Shown piece by piece: positions 7,115 through 64,000 of a DNA stretch of 64,000 bases (position 1 is the first letter of the stretch; the number at the start of each line of letters is the position of its first letter). The stretch is from Lacrimispora xylanolytica. Its GTDB lineage: Bacteria > Bacillota > Clostridia > Lachnospirales > Lachnospiraceae. Where the stretch lies: assembly GCF_026723765.1 (NCBI RefSeq), contig NZ_CP113524.1, positions 1,163,001-1,227,000 on the forward strand. Direction: 5' to 3'. The notes under the pieces are model-generated. The model ran no database searches. It saw nothing but the letters and a program-made list of their open reading frames with translations, and was not told the DNA's origin. A program made the translations under genes and the position numbers.

Positions 7115-7130
7115 AAGGAGGCTTTGCCCT

Positions 7131-10725: not shown

Positions 10726-10728
10726 GAT

Positions 10729-11913: not shown

Positions 11914-11966
11914 CCTCTTTTTCACGTGTAACTTCCTCCTTGTATGGAAGGAAAAGGTCTGATAAA

Positions 11967-12875
11967 ATGGAGGAAACGGACAAAGAGGTAAAGGCAATGA
12001 AAGATTCTGATTGGGTGATCCTGTATGAGCTTTACAAAAATCCAAATATGTCAAAGGTGGCCAGCCTGTTATTTATGACCCAGCCTTCCCTCACAAAAAG
12101 GCTGAAGCAGATGGAGTCAGAATTTCAGGTGACCATTGTAAACAGAACCCCAAAGGGCCTGGAGTTTACGAAAGAAGGTGAATTTCTGGCAAACCAGGCA
12201 AATGTATATCTGGATTTTATGAAAGAGACCAATCGGGGACTGGCTGAATTAAAAGAAAGCGGTGAAGAGACCATTGTTATAGGCTCTTCCTACACCTATA
12301 GTAAATATACCCTGACTGATGTTTTATACCAATACAATCAAACCCACCCCAATGTGAATTTTCACATTGTGAATGATCAAAGCAATATCCTGTTCCGAAA
12401 GATGTTAGAGGAAGCGGTAGACGTTGCTTTTATCCGCGGTGATTATGAGGGCGCTGTCAATAAAGCTCTGATTGCTGAGGATCAGGCATATCTCATTACC
12501 AAGGAAAAGGTTGATATGGACCAGCTTCCCGGTCTGCAGTGGATTGCATACAGCACCAATGACCGAACCAAGGAGCTTTTAGGTGATTGGTGGCAGGATC
12601 GTTTTCATACAGCTCCCCCTTTGGGTATGGAAGTGGGGTTTATTGATTTCGCCTGGCAGCTGATTGGCAAGGGACTAGGGTATACTTTATGTTTTCTTCC
12701 CAGTAACTTTGTGAACGAACATGATCTTTGTCTGACTCCCTTGACAAAAAGGAATGGAGCTCCGGTACTTAGAAATACATGGTTTATCTATTCGAAAAAC
12801 AAGAGAAAATCAAAGATGCTGGAAGATTTTATTCGTTATATAGAAGAGAAGCTTGTAATTGTATCATCGCGATGA
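11967..12875 (+). CDS. LysR-family transcriptional regulator
   Basis: About 302 residues from ATG 11967. An upstream TTG (11940) and an internal ATG (11997) are alternatives; 11967 has AAGG at suitable distance. The N-terminal helix-turn-helix reads MSKVASLLFMTQPSLTKRLKQ, followed by the periplasmic-binding-protein-like effector domain. It lies downstream of aconitase and isocitrate dehydrogenase in the same direction and ends in a strong terminator. In Firmicutes the citrate-branch LysR regulator CcpC plays this role, so control of the two upstream genes is plausible but unproven. Confidence 0.87.
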   Translation: MEETDKEVKAMKDSDWVILYELYKNPNMSKVASLLFMTQPSLTKRLKQMESEFQVTIVNRTPKGLEFTKEGEFLANQANVYLDFMKETNRGLAELKESGEETIVIGSSYTYSKYTLTDVLYQYNQTHPNVNFHIVNDQSNILFRKMLEEAVDVAFIRGDYEGAVNKALIAEDQAYLITKEKVDMDQLPGLQWIAYSTNDRTKELLGDWWQDRFHTAPPLGMEVGFIDFAWQLIGKGLGYTLCFLPSNFVNEHDLCLTPLTKRNGAPVLRNTWFIYSKNKRKSKMLEDFIRYIEEKLVIVSSR

Positions 12876-12880
12876 TGTGC

Positions 12881-12923
12881 AAATAAGGACGTTGTTTTAA
12901 ATAAACAGCGTCCTTATTTTTTA
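12881..12923 (+). terminator. Rho-independent terminator after the LysR gene
   Basis: AATAAGGACGTTGTTT pairs with AAACAGCGTCCTTATT with one wobble; the T run continues to 12922. Confidence 0.9.
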
Positions 12924-12970
12924 TAGAAAAATAAACTATGATTAGAATAAGAAAACTAGGAGGGGTAAGC

Positions 12971-14407: not shown

Positions 14408-14420
14408 AGGAGGAAATTTT

Positions 14421-14735
14421 ATGATCCGAAAATCATTTAAAATGTATCTAAATGAAGGAATGGCAGAGGAATATGAAAAAAGACATAACATGCTATGGCC
14501 GGAGATGAAAGAGATGATACGCCAGTGCGGCGGCCATAATTATTCCATCTTCTTAGACGAAGAGACCAACGTACTCTACGGATACATTGAAATTGAGGAC
14601 GAAGAGCGGTGGGCTGAATCAGCCGATACTGCCATCAACCGCAAATGGTGGGATTTCATGGCAGACATTATGAAGACCAATTCGGATAACAGTCCGGTTT
14701 CGGTTGGCTTAACACCAGTATTTCATCTGGATTAA
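14421..14735 (+). CDS. rhaM: L-rhamnose mutarotase
   Basis: 104 residues, the usual family length. It interconverts the alpha and beta anomers of L-rhamnose, feeding the isomerase. The typical features are an N-terminal strand, [14 protein letters not shown] with the catalytic His, and the C-terminal [17 protein letters not shown] precedes the ATG. It lies 13 bases after rhaB and 23 before rhaA, an uncommon middle position but clearly the same operon. Confidence 0.93.
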
Positions 14736-14758
14736 TAGGGAAAAGGAGAAGGAAAGCG

Positions 14759-16009
14759 ATGACAATAAAAGAGAGATATGAGGCAGCAAAAGAAAGCTAC
14801 AAAGGGATTGGTGTGGATACCGATGCCGCTATAAGTGCATTAAAGGCGATTCCCATTTCCATGCACTGCTGGCAGGGGGATGACGTAACTGGATTTGATG
14901 GGGCAGGCGCTCTTTCCGGAGGAATCCAGACCACGGGAAATTATCCGGGCCGTGCCAGAAACCCACAGGAATTAATGGCGGATATGGATCAGGCATTAAA
15001 CTTGATTCCTGGAAAGCACCGCATTAACTTACATGCCAGCTATGCCATATTTGAAGAAGGAGAATGGGCTGACAGAGATAAGCTGGAACCAAAGCATTTT
15101 AAAAAATGGGTAGAGTTTGCAAAGGAACGGGGCATTGGCATTGATTTTAACCCCACATTATTCTCACATGCCAATGCAGAGCATGCCACCTTATCAAGCG
15201 AAGATCCTAAGATTCGCTCATTCTGGATCGACCATGTAAAAGCATGCATCCGAATTTCAGAGTATTTAGCCACAGAGCAGGGAACCCCTTGTACCATGAA
15301 TATCTGGATTCCTGACGGATTTAAGGACATTCCTGCTGACCGTACCTCTCCAAGAGCAAGACTTAAGGATTCTCTGGACCAGATCCTTTCCATGGAGTAT
15401 GATAAAACAAAGGTGCTTGTAGCCGTGGAATCAAAGGTATTTGGAATCGGTATGGAAAGCTGTACCGTAGGCTCCCATGAATTCTATATGAACTACGCCT
15501 CTAAAAATGACATCCTCTGCCTCCTTGACAGCGGACATTATCATCCGACCGAGGTGGTTTCAGATAAGATTTCATCCATGCTTTTATTCTTTGACAAGGT
15601 TGCCCTGCACGTAACACGACCGGTGCGCTGGGATAGTGACCACGTAGTTTTATTTGATGATGAGACAAAGGAAATTGCAAAAGAAATTATCCGCGGCGGC
15701 TCAGACCGTGTGCTTTTAGCCCTTGACTTTTTCGATGCCAGCATTAACCGCATCAGTGCCTGGGTGGTTGGAATGAGAAACATGCAGAAGGCCTTGTTAA
15801 ATGCACTGCTTTTACCAAATGAAAAACTGGCTGAGCTTCAAAATACCAGAAGCTTTACGGAGCTTATGATGCTTCAGGAAGAATTAAAGCTTTATCCCAT
15901 TGGAGATGTGTGGAACTATTTCTGTGAGCTAAATGGAGTCCCGGCTAAGGAAGACTGGTTTAAAACAGTGGCTGCTTATGAAAAAGACGTACTGTTAAAC
16001 CGGAAATAA
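14759..16009 (+). CDS. rhaA: L-rhamnose isomerase
   Basis: 416 residues, matching the E. coli enzyme (419). It converts L-rhamnose to L-rhamnulose with two divalent metals. Conserved parts are [15 protein letters not shown] near residue 40, LHASYA, the metal-ligand stretch [11 protein letters not shown], and the C-terminal [11 protein letters not shown]. Start ATG 14759 with AAGGAGAAGG upstream. Central gene of the rhamnose operon. Confidence 0.97.
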
Positions 16010-51245: not shown

Positions 51246-51278
51246 GTTACAATATTTTTCTGAGTGAGGTATTATGTT

Positions 51279-51605
51279 ATGAAAGACAAATTTGAGACAG
51301 TGGAAGGGATCACTTTAACGTGCTCCATGGGAAGCTGCTCCAGCCCTTTAAAGGTTCCGGCCAGCCGCAGTTTTGATGAGGGGGGAAGGCGGCTGGTTAC
51401 TGTCATGGATTATAAACCTGGGACTAATATCACCTCTTTTGGCACGTGTACAAGGATGACGCCACCCCAGCCATGTGTTCCGGTGGTCTTAATTCCATGG
51501 ATGGTAAAAGATAATAAAGTTAAGATAAATGGGGATGCAGCCCTGTCCGATCAATATGTCTTATCCTGTTTGTGCGGCGGAGTCATTCGGCTTAACAAGC
51601 TATAA
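51279..51605 (+). CDS. PAAR-like DUF4280-type protein
   Basis: 108 residues from ATG 51279 (GAGG upstream); a GTG five codons earlier is possible. The pattern of DUF4280 is clear: TCSMGSCSSPLKV, VMDYKPGTNITSFGTC, PPQPCVPVVLIPW and the C-terminal LSCLCGGVIRL, with paired Cys at both ends. PAAR-like proteins cap the spike of contractile injection systems. This one stands alone, convergent with a PNPOx-like gene, but lies about 5 kb before a cluster of sheath- and tube-like genes. Assignment to the family is good; the role is inference. Confidence 0.7.
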   Translation: MKDKFETVEGITLTCSMGSCSSPLKVPASRSFDEGGRRLVTVMDYKPGTNITSFGTCTRMTPPQPCVPVVLIPWMVKDNKVKINGDAALSDQYVLSCLCGGVIRLNKL

Positions 51606-52037
51606 TTCACCCGCTGCCGCTTGGCAGTCTATCCATAAGTAGCTCGTGGTGTGAAAGATCAGGACGCAGTAACCGGGATCATCTGGGCTGTTAAAGTGGT
51701 TTGCCATGCCGGAATACCACATCTCATGCCGGATGTCAGGGGCTGTTGAAACTTCCATCCAGCCGGTTAAGGTAATGTTATAGTCTCCCCCGGTATTAAA
51801 GCATACACTGGCTTTGGTACAGTCAAAAATCCGTTTTGACTTAGTGCTTCCAAGACCGGTACAAAAGCTGATCCACTGAATTCCCTGGGCTTTTGATGGT
51901 GTAATGGTGGAAGCCGTAGGACCTCCATTCTTATCCATGAGAGCCAGAACGCAATAAGGATTAAAGCCTTCCGGTCCGGAGTGCACCGTAGTTTGCTGAA
52001 TAATAGCCTCTGCTTTTTTAAGAATATCTTCGTTCAT
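51600..52037 (-). CDS. Pyridoxamine 5'-phosphate oxidase-like flavoprotein
   Basis: 145 residues from ATG 52037 with GGAGGTGGG upstream. PNPOx-type split barrel: ALMDKNGGPTASTITPSK followed by ISFCTGLGSTKSKRI, a pattern typical of general-stress-protein-26-like flavoproteins. Probably binds FMN; reaction unknown. Ends inside the last codons of the convergent PAAR-like gene (6-base overlap). Confidence 0.8.
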   Translation of the reverse strand: MNEDILKKAEAIIQQTTVHSGPEGFNPYCVLALMDKNGGPTASTITPSKAQGIQWISFCTGLGSTKSKRIFDCTKASVCFNTGGDYNITLTGWMEVSTAPDIRHEMWYSGMANHFNSPDDPGYCVLIFHTTSYLWIDCQAAAGEL

Positions 52038-52063
52038 ACCCACCTCCATAATTTCTATGAATA

Positions 52064-52771
52064 TTATCCCTTTATAAACTTAATTATTTTCTTAGAGTCA
52101 GCGTTTGGATTAAGGAGTAGGATCTGCTCTGTAATCTGCTTAATTGCATCCTCTTTCTTGATTTTTGCTGCCTCTTCAAAAACGTCTGCTCCCCAAAAGG
52201 TTTCTGTGGAACAGAAAACAGTGGAAGACCAGCCGTATTCCTCTCCCTTTAGGGATCGCTTCTGTTTTCTTCCACACATGGTCACATACAGCTTCATCTG
52301 CAATTCCACCAGGGAACGGTCAAACAGAGACTTGTCTTCTTTTCCAAAACCCGCAAGCTCCTTAATGGAATGGAGAGGCAATGAGATATGCTCCACAATG
52401 GTTTCATAAATCCTTTTTGCAGGACTGCTGATAAGCCCGTCCCGATATTCTTCCTCCAAAGTTCTGCCATTTCTTCGGACAGCAAGGAATAGAGGAGCCC
52501 AGTCTTTTGTTATAAATCCGCTTTTCTTAAAGAACAGCTTGGAATAAGCGATGTCATTACGCTCATCTAAAACACGAATTCTCCATTCCCAGGGATCGGT
52601 CTCCCAGCTTCCAGTGTGCCAGGTTATTGGTGTCTCATATGGGGGCGACTGATTCCAACCCCAGTTTATAATGGAATAGATTCCTTCGCTGTTTCCTCCC
52701 CCCATGGAAAAACCGGCTTCCAATAAGGTTTCTAAAAAATCTTCGTAGCTTCTAATTTCACGATGAATCAA
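52064..52771 (-). CDS. AlkZ-related protein
   Basis: About 235 residues from TTG 52771, which has AAAGGAGGG seven bases upstream; the ATG at 52798 lies before this site and is less likely. Key segments are WHTGSWETDPWEWR and RNDIAYSKLFFKKSGF. I recall this as the family called AlkZ-related, distant from the DNA glycosylase AlkZ, of unproven function. No catalytic QxQ motif is obvious, so glycosylase activity should not be assumed. Confidence 0.65.
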   Translation of the reverse strand: MIHREIRSYEDFLETLLEAGFSMGGGNSEGIYSIINWGWNQSPPYETPITWHTGSWETDPWEWRIRVLDERNDIAYSKLFFKKSGFITKDWAPLFLAVRRNGRTLEEEYRDGLISSPAKRIYETIVEHISLPLHSIKELAGFGKEDKSLFDRSLVELQMKLYVTMCGRKQKRSLKGEEYGWSSTVFCSTETFWGADVFEEAAKIKKEDAIKQITEQILLLNPNADSKKIIKFIKG

Positions 52772-52831
52772 ATGAATTCCCTCCTTTAACATAATCATAC
52801 CACGGGAAACATGACAGCAGTATGTCCTGTT

Positions 52832-53737
52832 CTATTTATAATTCTCAACTATTTTACCAGCAATCTCTTTCATCTCCATTGCCAGATCAAGAGGCTTTAG
52901 TACGGTTACCTTTTCTCCGAAGCCAAGAAGCCATGAAATCGTATAATCCCGGTTCGTATACCCGATTTCAAGGCGCAAAAGACCTTCCTTTGTTTCCTTA
53001 TAGCAGTGAGGACCATAGGTTTCAATGAGCTGATAACGGACGGAAGGGTGGAATAGGGCCACTAAGGGCTTGTCATCTGGAAGCGTGTCATTTAAGTTTC
53101 TTTTATCCCCTGGAATCTCCCTAGGAAGAAAGGATTCCTTACAAGAATGAAGATTCCACAGACGCATGAGCTTAAATAGCCGCCAGTCTTCTTTCTCCCG
53201 GCAGTAGCCAAGGAGATACCAGGAAGTCCACTGATAAACGACCAGATATGGCTCCACCTGCCTGCGACTCACTCCCTTTTCATAATAATAGTCAAATTCC
53301 ACAAGGTGTGATTCCAGAATAGCCGATTTAATCAGCCGGATTTTTTCTGTCAGGCTTCCTTTATAATGGGAGGCAAGATCAATGACAACAGGCTCCTGTA
53401 AGGGCACTGTCTTTTCCTTGCCGGCAGATAATTTATCAAGTGTCTGTTCCATATAAGACTGGTCCATAACACTTCCCATACCCTTTAAGCCCGCAATGAT
53501 CCCGGAGAGCTCGTCTGGGGTCAATAGGCTTTTATCCAGCTTGTACCCCTCAGCGATACAGATACCGCCGCCGCTTCCCTGTTGTGTGATGACAGGAATC
53601 CCTGCCTGACACAAAGCTTCAATATCACGGTTAATGGTACGCCTGGATACTTCAAATTTCTCAGCCAGATAAGGAGCTGTCACCTTGTCGTTTTTTAGCA
53701 GAGTGGTCAGTATTCCAAGTAACCGGTCAAGTTTCAT
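52832..53737 (-). CDS. WYL-domain transcriptional regulator
   Basis: 301 residues. N-terminal winged helix (DRLLGILTTLLKNDKVTAPY, then LAEKFEVSRRTINRDIEAL), WYL ligand-binding domain (about 135-220, with EPYLVVYQWTSWYLLGY), and a C-terminal WCX region. Such proteins bind nucleotides or nucleic acid ligands and control DNA-damage, defence or metabolic genes. A palindrome overlaps its promoter, suggesting autoregulation. AAAGGAG upstream. Confidence 0.9.
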   Translation of the reverse strand: MKLDRLLGILTTLLKNDKVTAPYLAEKFEVSRRTINRDIEALCQAGIPVITQQGSGGGICIAEGYKLDKSLLTPDELSGIIAGLKGMGSVMDQSYMEQTLDKLSAGKEKTVPLQEPVVIDLASHYKGSLTEKIRLIKSAILESHLVEFDYYYEKGVSRRQVEPYLVVYQWTSWYLLGYCREKEDWRLFKLMRLWNLHSCKESFLPREIPGDKRNLNDTLPDDKPLVALFHPSVRYQLIETYGPHCYKETKEGLLRLEIGYTNRDYTISWLLGFGEKVTVLKPLDLAMEMKEIAGKIVENYK

Positions 53738-53804
53738 CGCTTTCTGACTCCTTTTTCCATCCTGTGAGACAGGTTTTTTTTAAAAATATAATTTCTTAAA
53801 GCTT

Positions 53805-53833
53805 ATTATACAATAGATTGTATAAAAGGTGAA
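53805..53833 (-). promoter_or_regulatory. Promoter of the WYL gene with overlapping palindrome
   Basis: On the minus strand: TTCACC (53833-53828), 17 bp, TATAAT (53810-53805). TATACAATAGATTGTATA (53807-53824) is a perfect 8+2+8 palindrome lying over the -10 and spacer. Confidence 0.6.
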
Positions 53834-54227
53834 ACAAAGTTTTTTCGGAGCAATAATGGCAAAAGATTACATGCAAATTTTGGCAGTCAAAGTGTATAAT
53901 TTTAGCACTTAGGTTGAAAAATGTCGGTTTTCATTATATGCTGAAAAAGATATAAATACTTAAATTTGTAACAATAATACATTGATTTCTATGGGATGCT
54001 GACGAAGAATCGTGCTGTGAAAAGTGTGCTGCAAGAGAGGCAATGGTAAAAAGTATCCATGAGATCTGTGTGTATGAAAAGATGGAACTATGAATTCTGT
54101 AAATCTTAACGGTGTGTCAGCACTTTCGTAAAATCTATAAAAAAACCTATAATCCATAAAATCAATGGCTAGCATGTGAAAAATATAAGGTTCTTTTAAA
54201 CAATACAGAATAGTGGGAGGTAAGACT
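53834..54227. other. Intergenic region without a recognised gene
   Basis: About 390 AT-rich bases between the divergent WYL and response-regulator genes. A minus-strand ORF at 53960-54175 lacks a ribosome site and looks accidental. A TATAAT occurs at 53895 but no good -35 is seen. I find no other structure. Confidence 0.5.
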
Positions 54228-54950
54228 ATGTTAGAAATTGGAGTCTGCGATGATGACCGTCTGCTGCTGTGGGAAATGGAGAAATATCTGCTGGAATTAG
54301 GGGAGGAGACCGGGGTGAAATTGGAGGTCGATACTTATGCAGACGGGGAAGAGATTGTAAGAGCAGTGATGAAAGGAAAGCGTTTTGATATTATTTTCAT
54401 GGATATCGAGATGCAGCATTTAAGCGGCATGTGTGCAGCAAAAAGAATCAGGGAGATGGACCGTACCGTGCAGCTTGTTTTTGTAACGTCTCATGAAAGC
54501 TATATGAAGGAAGCATTTCTCGCTGCTCCCATTGGCTTTCTTTTAAAACCGCTAAGTAAGACAGAATTTACGGATACGTTTCATCATATTTTAAGGATGA
54601 TCGGGACGGAGGATCAGTTTTATCGTTTCCGCTATGACCGGTCTGATTATAAGGTGCTTTTAAAAGAGGTCATTTACTTTGAAAGCAAAGGGAGAATGAC
54701 AGAGATTGTCTGGGAAGGAGGCCGTTACAGGCTCTATAAAAACCTGGAGACCATTGAAGAGGAATTAAGAAGTCAGAAGATGCGCTTTGTGCGTATCCAT
54801 AAGTCTTATTTGGTTAACTACTGGCGAATTTCCAGATTTTCTGCGGATTTTGTGGAATTAATGGATGGAATCTGTCTTCCTATCAGCAGAAGCCGCAGAA
54901 AAGAGGTGGAAGTCAATTTATATGATGCAATGGAATGGTGCCATGTATGA
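54228..54950 (+). CDS. LytTR-type response regulator (AgrA-like)
   Basis: 240 residues from ATG 54228 (GGGAGGT upstream); a GTG five codons earlier is less likely. Receiver domain with phosphoacceptor Asp in FMDIEMQ (about residue 61), the Thr/Ser in VFVTSH and Lys in LLKPLSK. C-terminal LytTR DNA-binding domain (about 135-235) with FVRIHKSYLVNY. Pairs with the kinase whose start overlaps its stop. No AgrB or AgrD-type peptide genes are visible, so the signal is unknown. Confidence 0.92.
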   Translation: MLEIGVCDDDRLLLWEMEKYLLELGEETGVKLEVDTYADGEEIVRAVMKGKRFDIIFMDIEMQHLSGMCAAKRIREMDRTVQLVFVTSHESYMKEAFLAAPIGFLLKPLSKTEFTDTFHHILRMIGTEDQFYRFRYDRSDYKVLLKEVIYFESKGRMTEIVWEGGRYRLYKNLETIEEELRSQKMRFVRIHKSYLVNYWRISRFSADFVELMDGICLPISRSRRKEVEVNLYDAMEWCHV

Positions 54951-56254
54951 ACGAGGGGATGAGAATGACTGCCAGCGTATTATTTTCGCTTTTTAGTGTA
55001 TGGATCATGAAGCTGTATTTAGATACGTTCCTTACAAAAAGAAGCGGATTTAGAAAGGCAGCAGGATGGCTGCTTTTCTTTTTATGGCAGATGTATGGAA
55101 GGCTTTATCTGGCCGGAGATTCACCGATTTATTACCTGTTTGGTTCCTTTGCTGTTATTGGTCTGGTCGGAATCGTTGGCTATACTTCAGCCATCTGGAA
55201 CCAGGTGACCTTTTCTGCGCTTTTTGCAGCGCTGTGGGAGCTTATGGACATGTTTTTTCTGCTGGGAACAAGGCTGTTTCTGGGAGGAGAGGCTGATGGG
55301 ACAGTGACCGCTATGTGGCTGTCAAAGCTGTGCCTGTTTTCTTTGATTCTGGGAATTCGAAGGTATATGAAGGCGAAAGGAAGTATAAGCAATCTGCCTG
55401 CTCAGGGACTCTCCTTTCTTCTTCCCTTTACTGCTTTGATGACTGTATATTTTGCATTTTATATGATAGCCGAGCATTCTGTGTTCCAGGGTGGTAACAT
55501 GCTCTTTTGGCTTCTTTTAGGCACATCTGGCATGATACTGCTGAATCTTTTGGTGTATCCTGCTTATCTTCTTCGGGTAGAGGAAGCACGGATCAAGAAA
55601 AATGAGTGCATGTATATCAAACAACTGGAACTATTTAAAAAACAAAAACAACTGGAAGCCCAGGAAACCATAGAGCTACAGACAAAGCGTCATGATATGA
55701 AGCAGAAGCTGATATACATACACGAATTAGCCCAAAAAGAAGAGATGGACAGGCTGATGGCAGTCCTGGATGAGATGATTGGAGAAACATCTAAAAAGGA
55801 GCATTTAGACGAGTGGACAGGAAATCTGGTGGTGGATTCTCTGGTTAATCATCTATACCGGGTAACCCAGGCGAAGAAAATCAAGCTGGATACCAGAATC
55901 AAGGTTCCGCAGGAGCTGAACATTGAGGATACAGATCTTTGCATCCTTCTTGGTAATGCCTTTGACAATGCAGTGGAAGCCCTGGAATATGTGGAAGAAG
56001 AGAAACGGGATATGCGGGTGGATATGAAATATGAGAGAGGCTGCCTGCTTTTGTGCGTTAGAAACAAGTTTGCAGATGAGCTTAAAATGGACGAAGAGGG
56101 AAGGCTTAAGACCAGGAAAACAGAAGGAGTCCATGGTCTTGGAATCCGGTCCATGAAAAAGGTGACAGAACGGTATCACGGTGTCCTGATGACTGAAGGT
56201 GAGGATGATCTGTTTACTTTGAAGGCGATTTTATACGAACCTAAGAAAGCATAA
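54947..56254 (+). CDS. GHKL-type sensor histidine kinase (AgrC-like)
   Basis: 435 residues. Start taken at ATG 54947, overlapping the regulator's stop as ATGA; ATG 54965 with GAGGGG is an alternative. Six membrane helices in the first 220 residues, then a coiled-coil dimerisation segment with the phospho-His in KRHDMKQKL (about 250), and the GHKL ATPase with LLGNAFDNAVEAL (N-box) and GLGIRSM (G-box). Membrane topology resembles peptide-sensing AgrC/ComD kinases. The next gene is the VWA protein of the secretion-like cluster, so control of that cluster is a reasonable guess. Confidence 0.9.
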   Translation: MNEGMRMTASVLFSLFSVWIMKLYLDTFLTKRSGFRKAAGWLLFFLWQMYGRLYLAGDSPIYYLFGSFAVIGLVGIVGYTSAIWNQVTFSALFAALWELMDMFFLLGTRLFLGGEADGTVTAMWLSKLCLFSLILGIRRYMKAKGSISNLPAQGLSFLLPFTALMTVYFAFYMIAEHSVFQGGNMLFWLLLGTSGMILLNLLVYPAYLLRVEEARIKKNECMYIKQLELFKKQKQLEAQETIELQTKRHDMKQKLIYIHELAQKEEMDRLMAVLDEMIGETSKKEHLDEWTGNLVVDSLVNHLYRVTQAKKIKLDTRIKVPQELNIEDTDLCILLGNAFDNAVEALEYVEEEKRDMRVDMKYERGCLLLCVRNKFADELKMDEEGRLKTRKTEGVHGLGIRSMKKVTERYHGVLMTEGEDDLFTLKAILYEPKKA

Positions 56255-56261
56255 GAGAAGT

Positions 56262-56296
56262 GGGAGGTAAGATTGATACAGTTGCCTCCTATTTTC
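56262..56296 (+). terminator. Rho-independent terminator after the kinase
   Basis: GGGAGGTAA (56262-56270) and TTGCCTCCT (56282-56290), then ATTTT. Confidence 0.6.
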
Positions 56297-56466
56297 ATGC
56301 CAAAAAAAGAAAAAAGTTTCACATAATGCCTTGTAAATGACAAAATAATACATATTATGACCAAAAGTTACATATAACCTGCTATTTCATACGTGAATGA
56401 TTTTTTTGTCGTTTTTTATAGTATATTGTAATAAGTAAAAAACAAAAACAAAGGTGTGTTAGATCG

Positions 56467-58488
56467 ATGAAGAGATTAAAAAGGGTTCTGTTTGTACTAT
56501 TTTGCTTTGTTTTTCTCTCGGGTTCACAAAGGGTCATAGCAAAGGAAATCCGGAGTGAGCAAAATGGTCTGGATGTCATATTTGTTATGGATTACAGCGG
56601 TTCCATGAATGCCAATGATCCGGATCATACGGCAAGTGGAATGGTAAAGGCATTTATTGATACGGTTCACAGTGCAGATATCCGGATCGGCTTTGTTGCA
56701 TACAATGACAGAATCGTATCTTCGGCAGCACCGGTTTCTGTTAAGACCCAGGAGGAACGTGACGCCCTAAAGGCACAGATGGATTCTGCCGGATATTCCG
56801 GAAACACAGATATCGGTCTGGGGTTAAATTACGCTTATGGTCTTTCCGGTCAGGAAACAGGACGTAAGCGCATGATCGTCCTTATTTCAGACGGCGAGTC
56901 TGATTTAAAAGGCTCCAAAACAGGAAGATCCTTAGAAATCTCAAACGCAGATCTTAAGAATACGGTAGATGCCTGCCAGTCTCAGGGAATTCCCATTTAC
57001 ACCGTAGCATTTGGGAAATACGACGGAAGCAAGGAAGTATTAAAGGAAATTGCGAAGCAGACCAATGCAGGTAATTATACGGTGGAACAGCCGGAGACCT
57101 TAATTGACGTCTTGTACGGAATATTTCACTCCAACATGGCTTACCGGATTCAGGAGATAACCAATGGCATCTACGGAGCGGGCAGCCAGAGCATAAGGGT
57201 AAAGCTTGACGATGCCTATCTGGATGAGATGGATGTACTGATGATTTCTCCCCAGCAGATTCTTGATACTACAGTGATTTACGGGGACCAGCAGATAAAG
57301 CCGGTAAACCTGGTTCATTACTCGGTAGCGAAGCTGTCGGATGTGAAAAGTGAGATCAAGGAATTAAACATACAGACAAACACGTCTAAAGATCAGGGTT
57401 TAAAGGTTTATTTGATCAGCTATCGGGATCTGGTTCCGGTTCTGGAGATTGAGACCGATATGACAAGAAATAAGCCCCTTCCATTCCGGATTTATTTTAA
57501 AGATAAAGGCGGCAGTGTCATTACCGATGAAGCATTTTATAAAAACTTTACTCCCAAAATTGAGATTTATGCCGATGGTCAGTCTGCCAATGGCCGGACA
57601 CCTTTAAATACAGAAATTAAGAACGGTGTGATAGCCGGCGAAGTAAAGCTTGGCAGTTCCGGAACGTATTACATAGACAGCCGTTTGGATGATGTGATGG
57701 AGTCCTGTGTGTTCGATACCGTAAGGGTACAGGTGGTCAATACACCTCCTGCCGGTGAGCTTCCGGACAAGCTTTCGTTAAATCCTTTAAGCAAAGAGAA
57801 AAAGCTAAGGCTTGATGATTTTTTTCATGATTCCGATGGGGATGCACTTACCTATTCCATGGAAGAAAGCACAAAGAATGCGGCAGCCGTGACTCTTGAT
57901 AAAGGCGTTCTTACGGTAAAGCCTTTAAAGTCAGGAAGGGAAAGCCTTGTAATCAAAGTGGCTGACGGAGAATCTGCCATTTCCTACCGTTACAGCTTTG
58001 AAGTAATTCCTCTTTGGAAGGCATATTGGTGGGCGTTTGCACTGGGCATTTTGTTGCTTGGGGCGATAATATGGAGAATTTTCCATAAGCCAAGACCAGA
58101 GCTTGAGGTAATCACAGAAAAGAAAGCCCAAAACCGCTTTCAGGGAAAGATGGATGCCTACTTTGTCGGGCAGCCGGAGGAGGAAGAGGAGATTCCGCCT
58201 CTCACATTCCCTATGTACAAAATCAAGGATAACCGTGTGAGCATTGGAGACTTAATGAAGGAATTCCCTGAAGCCTCTGAATCACTGGGGCTTGACCGGA
58301 TCTTTCTGATTGCAGATGAAGAACGTCGGATGATCCTTTATCATTCTTCGGATTCTGTCATTATGCTGGGAAGCTCTATTGTATGCAAAAAGATTCAGTA
58401 CAGCGTAAGCTTTGGAGACATTATTTCTATTACTGCTCCGGAAGGAGATTACGACTTGGAGATCCACTATATCTCCATGATCCAGTAG
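56467..58488 (+). CDS. VWA-domain protein, secreted with a C-terminal membrane anchor
   Basis: 673 residues. Signal peptide 1-25, then a von Willebrand A domain (about 35-220) with an intact metal site: DYSGSM (residue 42), the Thr in NTDIG, and ISDGES. A middle region of beta-sandwich type includes a cadherin-like stretch (FFHDSDGDALTYSM). One membrane helix lies at about 518-538, followed by a 135-residue cytoplasmic tail of unknown fold. The tail could contact the FHA or phosphatase proteins encoded downstream. The region after the kinase terminator forms a new unit. In Gram-negative type VI systems the kinase PpkA can carry a VWA domain, a loose parallel only. Confidence 0.8.
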   Translation: MKRLKRVLFVLFCFVFLSGSQRVIAKEIRSEQNGLDVIFVMDYSGSMNANDPDHTASGMVKAFIDTVHSADIRIGFVAYNDRIVSSAAPVSVKTQEERDALKAQMDSAGYSGNTDIGLGLNYAYGLSGQETGRKRMIVLISDGESDLKGSKTGRSLEISNADLKNTVDACQSQGIPIYTVAFGKYDGSKEVLKEIAKQTNAGNYTVEQPETLIDVLYGIFHSNMAYRIQEITNGIYGAGSQSIRVKLDDAYLDEMDVLMISPQQILDTTVIYGDQQIKPVNLVHYSVAKLSDVKSEIKELNIQTNTSKDQGLKVYLISYRDLVPVLEIETDMTRNKPLPFRIYFKDKGGSVITDEAFYKNFTPKIEIYADGQSANGRTPLNTEIKNGVIAGEVKLGSSGTYYIDSRLDDVMESCVFDTVRVQVVNTPPAGELPDKLSLNPLSKEKKLRLDDFFHDSDGDALTYSMEESTKNAAAVTLDKGVLTVKPLKSGRESLVIKVADGESAISYRYSFEVIPLWKAYWWAFALGILLLGAIIWRIFHKPRPELEVITEKKAQNRFQGKMDAYFVGQPEEEEEIPPLTFPMYKIKDNRVSIGDLMKEFPEASESLGLDRIFLIADEERRMILYHSSDSVIMLGSSIVCKKIQYSVSFGDIISITAPEGDYDLEIHYISMIQ

Positions 58489-58592
58489 GACAGACTTTTT
58501 ATCCGTAACCATGTTGTTTACGCTTCTTATCCCAATTAAGACGGTAAGAGCGAATAAATAAAAGTAACAAGTAAGAAAGAGGGAGAGCGCCG

Positions 58593-60761
58593 ATGGAAAC
58601 GATTACACAAACAAACCGGACGATTCTATTTTCCGAAATTAATCCTGAAAAGCTGAATCTTTTAACGCTGATCGGAGATGTGAGAGGAAAGACAAGTCTT
58701 GATGACGACAAGATTAAGGAAATCAATGAAGTACTTCTGGTTGAGAGCTTTGAAGAATTTTTAGAGAAATTTGCACCAGTCGTTTATTCCTGGTGTGATG
58801 CCAACACTGGCTCCATCCAGTACAGCCTCATGAAACCAGAGAATTTACCGGACAACTGTATCACTGAGATACCTCTTAACGAAACAAATGATCTGCTGAA
58901 CATGCTGATCACCCTTCAGGGGGCAAAAGGCGCATTGGGAGTCGCAAACGTTGACTTTAAATTCAGCAATATCCTGGATATGATTTCTCCTAAGAAGATC
59001 ATGGAAGACATCCGTCAGGTGAGAAGAGAAATCCAGTATACCTACGGTAAATACATGGAGCTTGACGACGAAGATCCAAAGAGACTGGATATGGGGGATA
59101 AGCTGAATTATCAGTTCGAACAGGCCAGCCACAACTACAACAACGTATTGGCGATGCTTCCTCTTGCCATTGAAGATATTAAGACCCGTCTGCTCCTTGG
59201 AAGCGGTGAATCTGCTCAGGGCGGTCAGGAATTTAAGGCAGGTCTTTTAAGCATGGGTGACGACGGTGAGCTTAAGATCCTTGAGATGAAGCAGGAGGAA
59301 GGAACTCAGCTTGCTCTGGTGGATGACCATATTAATACAAGCCTCATTGAGACCTTTAAGGATGATTACGATGCCCTTAACGATACGCCTTCCGATTATG
59401 TAAGAGAGCTGGTAGTAAGAACCTTTTGTCCTCTTACTTCTACGGTGGAAAGCAGTGTGGACCGTGAGGTAGAGGTGAAGAACTACAATACATACTTAGA
59501 GTTCTATAAAAAGAGCAAGGATGATTTCGTCAAAGCAGTGAAACCTTTGATTGAGAAAATCCTGGGAGTAAAGTCCTTCTTTGATCAGTATCAGGTAAAG
59601 GAAAAAGGAATGCAGCCAAAGCTTCTCATTACCAATACACCTCTTGAGATGATGGTAAAGTCAAGCAATCTGCCAAGACTTTTGACTTACTTAAATACCA
59701 CCAATGATAAGAATGAATTTGAAAATACATTGTGGTTCGGCATTGTTCCTGACGTGGAATTCAATCAGTCAGGCGGTGGAAAACTCCAGAGAATGCGTTT
59801 TGCAGGAAATCAAAAGGAGAAAAAGCCGGGAACCAATACCATGGAAAGCCTTGCAACCTTAATGAATGCAATCAATCCATACAAGATTACTACCTTCTTC
59901 AGCTTTGCCACAGGAGAGGAAAGTACCTTCAGCTATGTAGCAACCGAAGGAATCGGCATCTTTAAGGATAAGTGCACTCCTCTTATGAAGAGAGATTTCA
60001 GCGAATTCGTAGTTCCCTGCATTCCCAATGTGACCATTATTCCAAAAGATAAGTCTGGTCTTATCCTTGATAAGCGGATGCTCATCGATGACGAAGGAAG
60101 AGTGGCTCTTTCTGAGGAAAAAGAAGATGTTATGAAGATGTGGATCGAGGGCGTATACGTGGGAGCCTCCTACGGAGCAGCCGGAATCACAGCTGCATGG
60201 CAGTGTCCAGAGTATTTAAAACAGAGATTTGGCAATACAACCAAGGAATATCCGGGTGTACGCTATGACATAGAAGCTGGTGACAATGCACTCTTAGTAA
60301 CCACCAGTATGACAAAAGAGATTTCAGGCTTTACCAACACCATTAAAAATTCCATTAATAATACTGGCTTTGGTTTTGTATTTACCTCAGACAATGCTCA
60401 GTGTAAGGGGCGGGAGATCAAGAATATCATGGTCTACAAGGCTAGGAATCTTTTAAGCAATGGAAATGAGTTTGAGCCAATCTATAAAACGCTTGTAGTT
60501 ACATACATTGAGCGTATGCTTCGTTTTTACAGCGGAGACTTTAAGCAGGATAAGATTCTTCAGTTCTTCAGCAACAATCCAAGCAGTCAGAAGAGCAAAT
60601 GGGATGCCAACCGTCAGTATGTCAATTCTCTTTTACAGGATGGAGACGAGCTGGACTTTAATATTGATGAGAAGAATGGAATCTGTAATGTACTTCTGAC
60701 CTTCAGCAATACCACAAGAAATTTAAAGGTAGAGCTGACAAGAAAAGGACAGACAGCATAA
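58593..60761 (+). CDS. Sheath-like protein (candidate TssB-TssC-type fusion)
   Basis: 722 residues, soluble, no signal. I do not recognise it from a named family with certainty. Reasons for a contractile-sheath reading: it directly precedes two tube-like genes; the C-terminal third has the order seen in sheath proteins, a VPCIPNVTIIPKDKSG strand pair, a GVYVGASYGAAGITAAW helix region, and a final domain with KTLVVTYIERMLRFYSGDF. The N-terminal 200 residues contain LITLQGAKGALGVANVDF, reminiscent of the C-terminal helix of TssB. Its size equals TssB plus TssC. AGAAAGAGGGAG upstream. An imperfect hairpin lies 40 bases before the start (58521-58552). Confidence 0.5.
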   Translation: METITQTNRTILFSEINPEKLNLLTLIGDVRGKTSLDDDKIKEINEVLLVESFEEFLEKFAPVVYSWCDANTGSIQYSLMKPENLPDNCITEIPLNETNDLLNMLITLQGAKGALGVANVDFKFSNILDMISPKKIMEDIRQVRREIQYTYGKYMELDDEDPKRLDMGDKLNYQFEQASHNYNNVLAMLPLAIEDIKTRLLLGSGESAQGGQEFKAGLLSMGDDGELKILEMKQEEGTQLALVDDHINTSLIETFKDDYDALNDTPSDYVRELVVRTFCPLTSTVESSVDREVEVKNYNTYLEFYKKSKDDFVKAVKPLIEKILGVKSFFDQYQVKEKGMQPKLLITNTPLEMMVKSSNLPRLLTYLNTTNDKNEFENTLWFGIVPDVEFNQSGGGKLQRMRFAGNQKEKKPGTNTMESLATLMNAINPYKITTFFSFATGEESTFSYVATEGIGIFKDKCTPLMKRDFSEFVVPCIPNVTIIPKDKSGLILDKRMLIDDEGRVALSEEKEDVMKMWIEGVYVGASYGAAGITAAWQCPEYLKQRFGNTTKEYPGVRYDIEAGDNALLVTTSMTKEISGFTNTIKNSINNTGFGFVFTSDNAQCKGREIKNIMVYKARNLLSNGNEFEPIYKTLVVTYIERMLRFYSGDFKQDKILQFFSNNPSSQKSKWDANRQYVNSLLQDGDELDFNIDEKNGICNVLLTFSNTTRNLKVELTRKGQTA

Positions 60762-60876
60762 TAGCTGCGTGATGCCCGCAGGTACAAATGTGCATCAGGG
60801 TGGTGGATTTTCCGTGAAGCCGGGGGGCAGATGGGAAATTCCTGAATGAGTGGTTTTGTGATTTTATTTGATAAAT

Positions 60877-60911
60877 GAAAAGCAGATAATGAAATTTATC
60901 TGCTTTTCGAT
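60877..60911 (+). terminator. Hairpin between the sheath-like and tube-like genes
   Basis: GAAAAGCAGATAA (60877-60889) and TTATCTGCTTTTC (60896-60908), a perfect 13-bp stem. The T run is part of the stem, so it may be a partial terminator or an mRNA-end structure. The 275-base gap otherwise holds no ORF. Confidence 0.6.
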
Positions 60912-61036
60912 CCCCCAGTCATCGAATGAGATGCAGGATAGGTAAATCAGGGTGGATCATGATTCTGGTATCTGAAAGCAGGCATTGACCGGCTTATAGA
61001 TTACAAAAAACATTTATTAAGAATGGAGGATGAAAT

Positions 61037-61465
61037 ATGGGACTTAGAATGAAAATCACAGGAAGCGAATCCGTTGATTTGCGTGAGACAAGTATCGTTA
61101 AAGTGGTATTTGGGGCAGATATTCCTCATGATTCCAATGCAAGATCCACCGATCTTGGTTCAACCGTACTGGTTGAAGGAAAAATACTGGCAGCAGTAGG
61201 TGGGGAAGCAGCAGACGATACCAGCAAGCTGGCAAGATGGTCTTTAGTACCAGCTGAAAATTCCGATTGCTACCGCAACGTTCAGATCGATGTTGTCAAT
61301 GCATCACAGGTGGTAAGACAGATTACCGTTCCTAACGCATTTGTAGTGGATTACACAGAAGATTTTACAGATGAGACAGGAACCGGTGTGTTCAAGCTTC
61401 TGATCAAGCAGAAGAAGGACAAGATGACCACCTTAAAATTTGAAGGCGGATTCAGCGGAGAATAA
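61037..61465 (+). CDS. Tube-like protein, first copy
   Basis: 142 residues, soluble, mostly beta. With the next gene it forms a tandem pair: 86 of 141 ungapped positions are identical, including DSNARSTDLGSTV, WSLVPAE, SDCYR and PNAFVVDY. I recall close homologues in Lachnospiraceae annotated as membrane-associated protease 1, a name the sequence does not support: no membrane segment or protease motif is seen. The strand NAFVVDY near residue 105 recalls the Hcp/tail-tube pattern. AGGAGG before the ATG. Confidence 0.6.
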   Translation: MGLRMKITGSESVDLRETSIVKVVFGADIPHDSNARSTDLGSTVLVEGKILAAVGGEAADDTSKLARWSLVPAENSDCYRNVQIDVVNASQVVRQITVPNAFVVDYTEDFTDETGTGVFKLLIKQKKDKMTTLKFEGGFSGE

Positions 61466-61496
61466 TTTAAAACGAAGAGAAAGGAAGGGATAAATT

Positions 61497-61922
61497 ATGG
61501 GATTTACATTAAAAGTTGAAGGGCCGTCTACCGTCGACCTGGGTACCACAAGTATTACAGGAGTTAAATTTAGAACAGATATTCCTCTTGATTCCAATGC
61601 TCGTTCCACCGATTTAGGAAGCACAGTGGAAATCACAGGTAAGATTTTAACAGCAGTGGATGGAGATCCTTTTGATTCCACCAGACAGTTAGGTCTCTGG
61701 TCTTTAGTTCCGGCAGAAAAATCCGATTGCTACCGTAAGGTAACGATTGAAGTGATTGCTGCTTCCCAGGTGATTCGTAAATATACATATCCTAATGCAT
61801 TTGTCGTGGACTACAAGGAAGACTACGGTGATACAGAAGGCGTGGGAACATTCCGGCTGATCATCAAACAGAAGAAAGACAAGATGGCGCAAATCGCTGT
61901 GGAAGGCGGATACAGCGTGTAA
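61497..61922 (+). CDS. Tube-like protein, second copy
   Basis: 141 residues, paralogue of the preceding gene and 31 bases after it. Differences cluster in the N-terminal strand, the loop around residues 60-72 and the C-terminus, which are likely ring-interface or surface positions. AGAAAGGAAGG upstream. A strong terminator follows, so sheath-like and tube-like genes may be made in larger amount than the downstream genes. Two tube subunits could form a mixed or two-zone tube, or serve different lengths. Confidence 0.6.
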   Translation: MGFTLKVEGPSTVDLGTTSITGVKFRTDIPLDSNARSTDLGSTVEITGKILTAVDGDPFDSTRQLGLWSLVPAEKSDCYRKVTIEVIAASQVIRKYTYPNAFVVDYKEDYGDTEGVGTFRLIIKQKKDKMAQIAVEGGYSV

Positions 61923-61930
61923 ACATGCAG

Positions 61931-61957
61931 GGGCTGCCGGTTAGGCAGCCCCTTTCT
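61931..61957 (+). terminator. Rho-independent terminator after the tube-like pair
   Basis: GGGGCTGCC (61931-61939) and GGCAGCCCC (61945-61953), loop of 5, then TTTCT. The next start is only 17 bases further, so readthrough is expected. Confidence 0.8.
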
Positions 61958-61973
61958 GTAAAGGAAACATAAA

Positions 61974-62387
61974 ATGCTTGATTACTACAAAATTCTTCTC
62001 GTATCCCCGAATGCTACGGATAAAGATATTAAGGCATCCTATAGAAAGCTTGCCAAAAAGTATCACCCGGACGTAATAAAGGATGACCCGGAAGGAAACA
62101 AAAAGATGTACGAGATTCAGGAGGCTTACAGCGTCCTGAGTGACGAAGAAAAGAGAAAGAAATACGATGCAGCCCTGGCCGGAGACAAGGAACGAGGCAA
62201 AGAGGAAAGAAAAAGTGCCGAGTCTTCTAAGGCGGCTCCGGATATGAGCCAGTTTGAACGGTTCTTTGGCTTTCAGGCTGGAAAAGGTATGGAGACCTAC
62301 CGGGGCACAGGAGGGAGCGCCAAAAAGAATGCCGGCCCAGTGAATCCGGATGATCTGTTTGCCGCTTTTTTCGGGACAAAAAAATAG
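61974..62387 (+). CDS. J-domain (DnaJ-like) protein
   Basis: 137 residues. A J-domain fills residues 1-66 with the essential HPD in KKYHPDVI. The remainder is a charged linker ([12 protein letters not shown]) and a Gly/Phe-containing tail, without the zinc-finger or substrate domains of DnaJ. Such short J-proteins recruit DnaK to a particular client, here probably a component of the neighbouring sheath/tube machine (inference). AAAGGAAAC ribosome site. Confidence 0.9.
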
Positions 62388-62406
62388 GAAAGGAGCCGGA
62401 TTGTAT

Positions 62407-62961
62407 ATGGGACGGAAAAAAGCATTAAAAATCGGTTTTGATATTGCTATTTTAGTCAGCGTGGCATGTATTACTTTCCTGATTATCTACCGTGGAGGCT
62501 ACCCCTTGTGGCTGAAAGTCCTGATTCTTTTATTCGGCCTGTCCGCCGCCGCAGATTTAACACTTCTCCTTGGAGGGAGAGGGTCTGTGAGGGAATATGA
62601 AAGGGCAGTCTCATCCCATTCTTTAAAGGCAGGTCAGCTGGTGCTTTTAGATGAACATGACAAACCTTTAAAATCCTGGGATCTGGCTGGAAGAACGGCT
62701 CTTATCATTGGAAAGAAGAATGACCAGGAGGACGTGGATGTAGACCTGACGGAATGCGAATACGGTACCTTCATCGATGATCTGCATGGGGTACTAAATT
62801 ACTGTCTGGATTCCTGGTATATGGAGGATTTAGGTTCGACCAATGGAATTAAGATTAAAAAGGTAGAAGATGGCGGCTGTTATAAGGTAACGAACCGGCC
62901 ATGCAAAGTTTCGGCGGGAGATGTGATTTATGTTGCCAATACCCGCCTCTTACTGACATAA
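62407..62961 (+). CDS. Membrane protein with cytoplasmic FHA domain
   Basis: 184 residues from ATG 62407 (AAAGGAG 11 bases before); TTG 62401 is an alternative and the longer frame to 62350 overlaps the J-domain gene. Two membrane helices (about 8-28 and 33-53) are followed by an FHA domain with LIIGKKNDQED and the conserved DLGSTNGI. FHA domains bind phospho-threonine peptides. The usual Arg of the IGR motif is Lys here. It may tether phosphorylated partners at the membrane. Confidence 0.85.
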   Translation: MGRKKALKIGFDIAILVSVACITFLIIYRGGYPLWLKVLILLFGLSAAADLTLLLGGRGSVREYERAVSSHSLKAGQLVLLDEHDKPLKSWDLAGRTALIIGKKNDQEDVDVDLTECEYGTFIDDLHGVLNYCLDSWYMEDLGSTNGIKIKKVEDGGCYKVTNRPCKVSAGDVIYVANTRLLLT

Positions 62962-62984
62962 GAACAAAGATTGGAGATTGATAC

Positions 62985-63482
62985 ATGAGCTTAGTAAGAT
63001 GCCCCAATGGACATGTTTTTAACGCAAGGCGTTACGGCAATACCTGCCCTTACTGCCAGATGAAGCTAAAGGAAGAGGCAGAAGAGAAGAAGCCCCTTGG
63101 ATTTGAGCCTGCCATGGAGCTTTTGGAGGAGGACATCCTTCCGGTCTGCGGCTGGCTGGTATGTATCTCAGGTGCAAGAGTTGGAATGGACTATAAGATC
63201 CACAGCGGAAAGAACTTTGTAGGCAGGGGAGATGATATGGACATCCAGATTCTGGGAGATAACGAGATTAACCGGAAAAACCATACCATTATAGTCTATG
63301 ACCAGAAAAAGAGAAATACCGTCATACTGCCTGGAGATGCGGCAGGACTTGCCTATTTAAATGAAGAGGCTGTTTATGTGCCTACCGAATTAAGGCCCTA
63401 CGACGTAATAGAGCTGGGGAAAAGCCGGTTCCTGTTTGTTCCCTTGTGCGGAGAAAATTTTGAATGGAATGATCAGAAATGA
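62985..63482 (+). CDS. Zinc-ribbon plus FHA-domain protein
   Basis: 165 residues. An N-terminal zinc ribbon has CPNGH and CPYC. A FHA domain (about 75-160) follows with FVGRGDDMDIQI, then INRKNHTIIV where Asn-His replaces the usual Ser-x-x-His, and LNEEAVYV at the end. A typical Clostridia arrangement in phospho-threonine signalling. Stop overlaps the phosphatase start as ATGA. Confidence 0.88.
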   Translation: MSLVRCPNGHVFNARRYGNTCPYCQMKLKEEAEEKKPLGFEPAMELLEEDILPVCGWLVCISGARVGMDYKIHSGKNFVGRGDDMDIQILGDNEINRKNHTIIVYDQKKRNTVILPGDAAGLAYLNEEAVYVPTELRPYDVIELGKSRFLFVPLCGENFEWNDQK

Positions 63483-64000
63483 CGATGACGATATTAAGCG
63501 GACTGGGAGCTATATTATTCCTTTCTCTTTTAGGAAGAATTCTATTGTCTGCCAGTGAACATTTGAGCCAGGCTGGAAAGAATCACAAAGCGCTTGGCGG
63601 GGAAGCCGTGAGCCAGACCACGGGAGATCAGGAGATACAGGCAGATGTTGCTGAAATTATGAAAAGCCCGGCAGGAACTCTGGCAATTTTATCAGACGGA
63701 ATGGGACGGGCAAACACAGGAAAGGTATGTGCCGGGATTGCGGCAGATACTTTATTAGATGCTTACCGGTCCTATGAAGTTTTACAAAACCCGGAATATT
63801 TTTTTAAGACCTCCTTTCGTGAGGCCCACTCCCGGATTCAAAAGACCATTGGAGACCGCAGAGGAGGAGCCTGTTTAGCAGCTGTTTTTGTGAATGGCAA
63901 AACACTACATTACGGCCTGGCAGGTAACATTCGGGTGGCCCTTTTAAGAAACCAGGAGCTGATTCCCATAAGCAAAGGGCATACTCTTGATGTTCTTGCT
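63479..64000 (+). CDS. PP2C-type protein phosphatase, 3' end outside the window
   Basis: 174 codons are visible from ATG 63479, in frame to the last base. One N-terminal membrane helix, then a PP2C/SpoIIE-type catalytic domain: metal motif AILSDGMGRA (Asp about 81), RRGGACLAAVFVNGK and LHYGLAGNIRVALL, where many relatives have GDSR. It would remove phosphate from Ser/Thr residues, reversing an unseen kinase. With the FHA proteins it makes a phospho-threonine switch like PppA/Fha in type VI systems. Confidence 0.82.
   Translation, partial: MTMTILSGLGAILFLSLLGRILLSASEHLSQAGKNHKALGGEAVSQTTGDQEIQADVAEIMKSPAGTLAILSDGMGRANTGKVCAGIAADTLLDAYRSYEVLQNPEYFFKTSFREAHSRIQKTIGDRRGGACLAAVFVNGKTLHYGLAGNIRVALLRNQELIPISKGHTLDVLA

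Follow-up and report, generated by a model that had tools for sequence, protein, structure and literature searches.

A gene cluster of Lacrimispora xylanolytica and other Bacillota that probably encodes a type VI-like contractile injection system

The stretch of DNA analysed here (the window) is 64,000 nucleotides long and corresponds to positions 1163001-1227000 of the single contig (C1, NZ_CP113524.1) of the 4.52-Mb genome of Lacrimispora xylanolytica. Towards its end it carries a gene cluster that had been proposed, in an original prediction made from the DNA alone, to encode a contractile machine under phospho-control. The window ends inside the first PP2C gene, and the rest of the cluster, past window base 64000, was read from the same genome. 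The main cluster encodes 24 proteins, all on the + strand (Table 1 lists those within the window). A VWA protein, a 722-aa candidate sheath protein, two candidate tube proteins (tube 1 and tube 2), a J-domain protein, two FHA proteins (FHA1 and FHA2) and two PP2C-like phosphatases (PP2Ca and PP2Cb, the latter with TPR) are followed by an Hsp70-like protein of 826 aa, by U429, U237, U265 and U220 (working names), and by VgrG1 and VgrG2; then come a pentapeptide protein, an Imm11-family protein, a DUF4280-Ntox44 protein, two proteins (386 and 406 aa), one of 210 aa, a VgrG-Rhs protein of 2431 aa whose C terminus is a Tox-SHH nuclease and, lastly, a SUKH-1 gene. The genes listed in the prediction, from VWA to PP2C, are indeed open frames that run in one direction, and so is the PAAR-like DUF4280 gene that had been placed about 5 kb before them and that sits ~4.9 kb ahead of the VWA gene. 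Twenty-three of the proteins were scanned with Pfam, and the 210-aa protein with NCBIfam only.

The 722-aa protein, predicted to be sheath-like, was modelled with AlphaFold2 from 17 sequences (predicted TM-score (pTM) 0.70, mean predicted local distance difference test (pLDDT) 69), and the model was compared by Foldseek with 350,542 chains of the PDB, which gave 364 matches, 50 of them printed. The three best were all chains of contractile injection systems. Two of them, ranked first (E 0.0075, prob 0.98) and third (E 0.068, prob 0.82), come from the Anabaena system, and between them stands the contracted sheath of the Photorhabdus virulence cassette (PVC; E 0.0098, prob 0.99). The remaining 47 printed matches had a prob of 0.44 or less. 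The Anabaena entry is titled as a baseplate structure, and we infer from the length of the matched chains that they are sheath subunits. In BFVD the top match of the model (E 3.2e-4, prob 1.00) was a protein of Myoviridae that is uncharacterised, and none of the matches shown there was named sheath. At the level of sequence there was no credible Pfam or NCBIfam family, no Pfam match to TssB/TssC or to a phage sheath, no recognition by PHROGs, and nothing credible among PDB sequences with the profile (short NS1 segments at E 0.017-0.027 and one match at 0.5). Because the E-values of the fold matches are modest, the case for a sheath leans also on their ranking and on the neighbouring genes. The model supports a sheath-like fold, and with it the assignment of the protein as a contractile sheath made of one chain.

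Tube 1 and tube 2 are 61% identical to each other, and the tube-like character ascribed to them in the prediction was borne out by weak but repeated matches. The Pfam family TssD was matched by 30 of the 36 members of the tube alignment at E up to 1 (best 9.9e-5), no other family was matched by more than one member, and a single member matched T4 gp19 at 0.043. The tube profile had one match among PDB sequences, which was Hcp1 (E 0.23). T6SS_HCP (PF05638) had no match in the genome, NCBIfam and PHROGs did not recognise tube 1, and PHROGs likewise missed the tube alignment. Sequence comparison thus suggests, weakly but repeatedly, that the paired 142- and 141-aa proteins resemble the TssD/Hcp tube protein of the type VI secretion system (T6SS), to which they would be remotely related. 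In the Paenibacillus and Aneurinibacillus loci described below both tube queries match the same place, so there is seemingly one tube gene there.

Baseplate, spike and AAA+ genes had been expected beyond base 64000, where baseplate-like and spike genes, among them a TssF-like gene and VgrG genes, were found, whereas gp25/TssE and AAA+ proteins were not recognised in the cluster. The model of U429 (pLDDT 84, pTM 0.77) matched just two PDB chains at E up to 0.001, both from baseplates of contractile systems. The better of them belongs to the T6SS TssK-TssF-TssG subcomplex (E 1.0e-4, prob 0.98) and has 532 residues, a length that we take to fit TssF; the second comes from the baseplate of the contractile system of Streptomyces (E 1.5e-4, prob 0.89), followed by another Streptomyces chain (E 1.3e-3, prob 0.23). 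Although U429 had no credible Pfam family and its profile found PDB sequences only at E 0.25 and worse, its predicted fold supports a TssF-like wedge protein. The tssG gene often stands directly after tssF, and U237 stands likewise after U429, with no family backing (the best Pfam match, SieB at 0.0039 in 2 of 21 members, is not credible). A reading of U237 as PPR-like was discarded as an artefact, since designed PPR proteins were matched with E down to 7.6e-17 while no single stretch passed alone. For U265, whose relatives are 19-32% identical to the first of seven members, there was no Pfam match.

The hub and tip were recognised more readily. VgrG1 matched Phage_base_V and VgrG2 Phage_GPD over the cut-off, with DUF2345 sub-threshold, and together with DUF4280 over the cut-off this gives a VgrG spike with a PAAR tip, as in the T6SS; a TIP49 match inside VgrG2 (E 0.058) is at chance level. 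The DUF4280-Ntox44 protein (Ntox44 E 7.4e-6) and the VgrG-Rhs protein, which ends in Tox-SHH (1e-9) and has a sub-threshold Phage_GPD stretch of its own (2.9e-4), the latter adjoined by the SUKH-1 gene (6.3e-7), are toxin/immunity arrangements as judged from their domains. Such arrangements bear on the idea of an intracellular device that acts on its producer by membrane-linked firing, in cell death or development. The contractile injection system (CIS) of Streptomyces is Gram-positive, cytoplasmic and linked to death, with firing that needs a membrane protein (PMC12237407, PMC10066040), and its baseplate is matched by U429 as well. Even so, an Rhs-nuclease beside SUKH immunity and a DUF4280-Ntox44 protein are arrangements of antibacterial effectors, the orphan island described next resembles orphan T6SS islands, and an intracellular device is quite improbable.

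This orphan island lies at C1:320.8-328.8 kb (4768-12844 of the stretch G000:C1:316001-336000) and contains DUF4280, two VgrG, Imm11-like, U220-like and pentapeptide-like genes, as well as a 561-aa protein with no Pfam match. No sheath was found in it, and the genome has a single sheath match overall. The island is a probable second set of spikes and effectors.

Relatives of the sheath are encoded in at least 348 of 597 candidate stretches of genomic contigs, of which the best 80 were kept, so that all counts per locus refer to the 80 most similar. They are tblastn matches anywhere in the locus at E up to 1e-4, and the flanks reach 10 kb beyond the sheath, too short a distance to include U265 and some of the U237 genes. 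Tube matches were present in all 80 loci, matches to FHA1, FHA2, PP2Ca and PP2Cb in 79 each, to the Hsp70-like protein in 78 and to the J-domain protein in 76, followed by U429 (71), U237 (68), VWA (63) and U265 (43). The linkage of sheath, tube, FHA, PP2C and Hsp70-like genes is thus maintained in 78-80 of the 80 related loci of Bacillota, and the predicted gene set goes beyond chance. The sole locus that lacks FHA and PP2C matches is a 6.6-kb contig that stops short; one of the four loci with no J match is on a truncated contig, and in another locus (L090) the J match lies before the sheath. Some loci with no U429 match have VgrG-like genes instead within reach of the flank, the VWA matches in most Paenibacillus loci are on the opposite strand, and the DUF4280 gene upstream of the VWA gene was matched in 4 of the 80, all close relatives.

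The titles of these loci name Lachnospiraceae, Clostridium, Peptostreptococcaceae, Pelosinus, Propionispira, Paenibacillus and Aneurinibacillus, and the gene neighbourhood is conserved from Lachnospiraceae to Paenibacillus. Pelosinus and Propionispira are double-membrane Negativicutes. The sheath was present in 15 of the 299 genomes sampled from the family and in 13 of the 398 sampled from the phylum (the genome itself is counted in both), and phyla beyond Bacillota were covered as far as the contig collection reaches. The sheaths of Clostridium sp. 12(A) and [Clostridium] aerotolerans are 100% identical to that of the window in the best segment. Contractile systems derive from phage tails, from which it might be supposed that the cluster is a domesticated or decaying prophage tail that has no injection function. 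This is highly improbable, given that the sheath frames were free of stops in 17 matches of the family sample (identity 88% down to 53%, one at 29%) and 13 of the phylum sample, that the gene set is conserved over divergent Bacillota, and that neither 50,697 phage records (searched at E up to 1) nor 72,556 plasmids (at E up to 0.01) contained a match to the sheath, nor was any of 96 sheath candidates confirmed in a pattern-based scan of viral contigs.

A more divergent set is formed by three genomes (G675, G543 and G068) with sheath matches at 26-29%. The tube, VgrG, U237, an Hsp70-like gene and a relative of U265 were recognised in all three. The profile of U429 found its counterpart in G675, whereas in G543 and G068 a protein of about the same length that had no match stands in its place. 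What these genomes share with the cluster was taken as the core machine, and the remainder as control. In G675, genes that by eye resemble transposases recur within the cluster, whose U237 gene is followed by an ordinary Hsp70 (PF00012, E 9.9e-56). In two divergent clusters (L117 and L119) a protein of ~1000 aa (~4600-7650 in cluster orientation) is encoded before a DUF4280-like gene; its two versions have 1010 and 994 aa, and the 1010-aa one had no Pfam match at 0.01.

The presumed control proteins were followed by their motifs and by hydropathy. Relatives were kept for this if they were on the + strand in a complete frame with no unknown residues and at 0.6-1.6 times the reference length (J 72 of 76, FHA1 60 of 79, FHA2 78 of 79, PP2Ca 77 of 79, PP2Cb 76 of 79, Hsp70-like 53 of 78, VWA 46 of 63). 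The VWA protein has an N-terminal hydrophobic segment (7-25) and a C-terminal transmembrane segment (521-539) followed by a cytoplasmic tail, and the metal-ion-dependent adhesion site (MIDAS) motif DxSGSM is present in 41 of 46 relatives; it is probably exposed at the surface. Two transmembrane segments are predicted in FHA1 (28-46 and 57-75), one each in PP2Ca and PP2Cb, and none in FHA2, and at least one such segment is found in 60/60, 75/77, 76/76 and 0/78 of their respective relatives. Of the predicted phospho-control, the FHA and PP2C proteins are in place, while no kinase was recognised among the genes of this cluster. A Ser/Thr kinase does occur in a Paenibacillus locus (Pkinase 2.3e-37), and tblastn with it found relatives 5′ of the sheath in 11 of the 80 loci, which do not include those nearest to the present one.

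The J-domain protein keeps its HPD in 72 of 72 relatives. In its presumed partner of 826 aa, hhalign with an Hsp70 of a related cluster showed an ATPase domain of the Hsp70 type (96.6%, E 6.9e-10), even though there was no significant Hsp70 match in Pfam or NCBIfam and the profile search of PDB sequences gave E 0.37 and worse. The 826-aa protein contains DFGSSN, DCGGGTTD and LTGQS, which we take to be the two phosphate motifs and the adenosine motif of the Hsp70/actin-type ATPases, and the patterns recur in 43, 52 and 50 of 53 relatives, respectively.

A LytTR response regulator gene and a sensor-kinase-like gene (label by eye) stand directly 5′ of the VWA gene. Relatives of the regulator were present in 21 of the 80 loci and of the kinase in 14, many at low identity (tblastn E<=1e-10), and the pair may possibly regulate the cluster.

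The same genome has a separate contractile tail element at C1 ~999-1013 kb (G000:C1:997001-1017000, about 1950-15860), presumably of the diffocin/PBSX type by its layout. The logic of a contractile tail is common to both, but the tail element, unlike the cluster, is known to standard families: Pfam readily finds its sheath, tube, gp25-type initiator, Baseplate_J, Gp48 and amidase, and the one gp25 match of the genome, below the cut-off, is located there. A recent origin of the cluster from this element was dropped because the parts of the cluster have no similarity to the canonical tail of the genome.

The comparison with the tail element is also relevant to the alternative of a released particle, i.e., an extracellular contractile injection system (eCIS) or tailocin that is built in the cytoplasm, leaves the cell through lysis and works on distant targets. 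The closest solved relatives of the sheath are PVC and Anabaena chains, the sheaths of the PVC, Anabaena and Streptomyces systems consist of one chain like that of the cluster, and eCIS are known in Bacillota (Firmicutes) (PMC4122934, PMC8213781). In a survey of eCIS, at least 10 Afp core genes were required, including one of Afp12/13/14/16 (PMC8213781). By contrast, the gp25, Baseplate_J, LysM, tail fibre and AAA+ families, as well as holin and lysin, were absent from the results for the 23 cluster proteins scanned, as far as Pfam models rather than Afp-specific profiles can tell, and the hub and tip of the cluster carry toxins. The ease with which Pfam recognised the tail element, and the membrane segments, FHA/PP2C control and immunity gene, which fit a cell-bound weapon, make a released particle unlikely.

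The cluster works most like a T6SS. It has in common with T6SS of classes i and iii a TssD/Hcp-like tube, VgrG hubs, DUF4280 tips, a TssF-like wedge protein, toxin fusions with an immunity gene and an orphan VgrG island, and with some of class i the control by FHA and PP2C; in some Gram-negative bacteria FHA, PpkA and PppA control T6SS assembly (PMC10433429). It differs in its one-chain sheath with no match to TssB/TssC, in TssE, TssJLM and ClpV, which were not recognised, in the Hsp70-like/J pair and in its Bacillota hosts. Class iv of Amoebophilus was described as having neither TssJML nor ClpV (PMC10433429), and by this description the cluster is like it in this respect, with a host of another phylum. 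Equally by description, it can be likened to a haloarchaeal contractile system, a contact-dependent weapon outside the Gram-negatives that was reported as an archaeal T6SS (PMC11566945).

There is good support for a contractile injection system. The cluster probably encodes one that works in the manner of a T6SS and forms a separate lineage, known to date from Bacillota, with components that have diverged almost beyond recognition by standard family models. The original prediction of a contractile machine under phospho-control largely holds, although firing itself would still have to be assumed; it had named as damaging a lack of sheath or tube likeness together with a lack of baseplate or spike genes downstream, and both likenesses and both kinds of genes were found.

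Several observations weigh against this assignment. The fold matches of the sheath are weak in absolute terms (E 0.0075-0.068, TM-score to target 0.37-0.47) and come from a model of middling confidence, and those of U429 have TM-scores below 0.3, with ribosomal chains ranking next (prob up to 0.75, E 0.13 and worse). The TssD count depends on a loose limit (E up to 1), and both tube proteins of the window are below the threshold. Sheath, tube, U429 and U237 reached a probability of at most 2.1% in hhalign with the tail proteins of the same genome (single-sequence targets). PP2Cb is a PP2C by NCBIfam only (2.9e-18, below the cut-off of that model), PP2Ca appears by eye to lack some residues of what we take to be the PP2C metal-site motif, no kinase was seen in the cluster, and FHA, PP2C, J and VWA were unmatched by BLAST in the fetched stretches of the divergent set. 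There was no gp25/TssE in the cluster, and among the cluster proteins, to which the search for these two was confined, there was no Pfam match to TssJLM and no credible ClpV/AAA+. With the TssB/C, TssE, TssJLM and ClpV components lacking a counterpart, membership in the T6SS proper is not supported.

The preferred reading, a cell-bound, phospho-controlled antibacterial system of T6SS-like action, suggests the following sequence of events. The baseplate (U429, U237 and U265) would dock at the cytoplasmic membrane via FHA1 and the PP2C proteins as well as, in loci that have it, the VWA protein, and a Ser/Thr kinase and the PP2C pair would set the phosphorylation state of FHA and so license assembly. 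Contact or envelope stress would then trigger contraction of the sheath, which would push the toxin-bearing VgrG-DUF4280 tip into an adjacent bacterium. In place of ClpV, the Hsp70-like/J pair may assemble or recycle the sheath and thus take over recycling from an AAA+ protein. A bolder version can be put forward tentatively, in which the cluster represents a further class of cell-bound contractile secretion system that is native to single- and double-membrane Bacillota, with AAA+ replaced by the Hsp70-like/J pair, docking by FHA/PP2C and a surface VWA protein that senses the target.

In 2016, the T6SS was described in Gram-negatives only, and it was asked whether Gram-positives with DUF4280 have something similar (PMC5349215); in Firmicutes, DUF4280 was reported beside Phage_GPD genes with no conserved eCIS or T6SS genes (PMC8651086). 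For the "unknown phage-like translocation system" that was guessed from DUF4280 neighbours in these two papers, whose text as consulted names no sheath, tube, baseplate or control genes, the cluster supplies candidate parts. Full novelty is countered by a table of 2012 that has firmicutes among the lineages with T6SS and with PVC toxins (PMC3482391), the available text of which describes no such cluster. Contractile injection and Lachnospiraceae are both mentioned in PMC10266427, the accessible parts of PMC12210884, PMC12056005 and PMC11027743 have nothing on the cluster, and no description of it was found in the open-licence PMC literature (which has no bioRxiv and few subscription papers). 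If the bolder version is true, the cluster would be the missing machine that delivers DUF4280 and VgrG-Rhs toxins in Gram-positive bacteria of gut and soil. With a conserved cluster of sheath, tube, wedge and spike that has its own control genes, the question of a Gram-positive T6SS-like system can be put to a direct test, and the Hsp70-like/J pair points to another route for assembling or recycling a contractile sheath. As many relatives come from Lachnospiraceae, the cluster may matter for bacterial competition in the gut.

Table 1. Genes of the cluster and of its 5′ neighbourhood within the window (window positions).
Feature	Position	Strand	Basis
DUF4280 (PAAR-like) protein, 113 aa, 5′ of main cluster	51264..51605	+	Pfam DUF4280 E 4.3e-19, over cut-off
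LytTR response regulator and adjoining sensor-kinase-like gene, possible regulators	54213..56254	+	Response_reg 7.8e-16, LytTR 8.1e-16
VWA protein	56467..58488	+	Pfam VWA E 1.1e-17, over cut-off
Candidate contractile sheath, single 722-aa chain	58593..60761	+	AlphaFold2 model and Foldseek
Candidate tube protein 1 (142 aa), Hcp/TssD-like	61037..61465	+	Pfam TssD sub-threshold, E 0.019
Candidate tube protein 2 (141 aa), Hcp/TssD-like paralogue	61497..61922	+	Pfam TssD sub-threshold, E 0.025
J-domain protein	61974..62387	+	Pfam DnaJ E 3.6e-24, over cut-off
FHA1, membrane FHA protein	62350..62961	+	Pfam FHA E 2.1e-5, over cut-off
FHA2, soluble FHA protein	62985..63482	+	Yop-YscD_cpl 1.4e-7, FHA 7e-4, both just below cut-off
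PP2Ca, first PP2C-like phosphatase	63479..64000 (start only; gene ends at window position 64339)	+	PP2C E 7.5e-5, over cut-off

In a metagenome-assembled genome labelled Paenibacillaceae (L027) the sheath is 93% identical to that of the window, as in Lacrimispora, and a mistaken label or misbinning of the contig is probable. Beyond the SUKH-1 gene there are glycosidase-like genes (by eye). The 386-aa and 406-aa proteins, encoded between the DUF4280-Ntox44 and VgrG-Rhs genes, look similar to each other, have an N-terminal hydrophobic segment and match the NCBIfam Rv1352/Rv1906c domain (1.1e-5 and 2.6e-4); they are possibly immunity lipoproteins.

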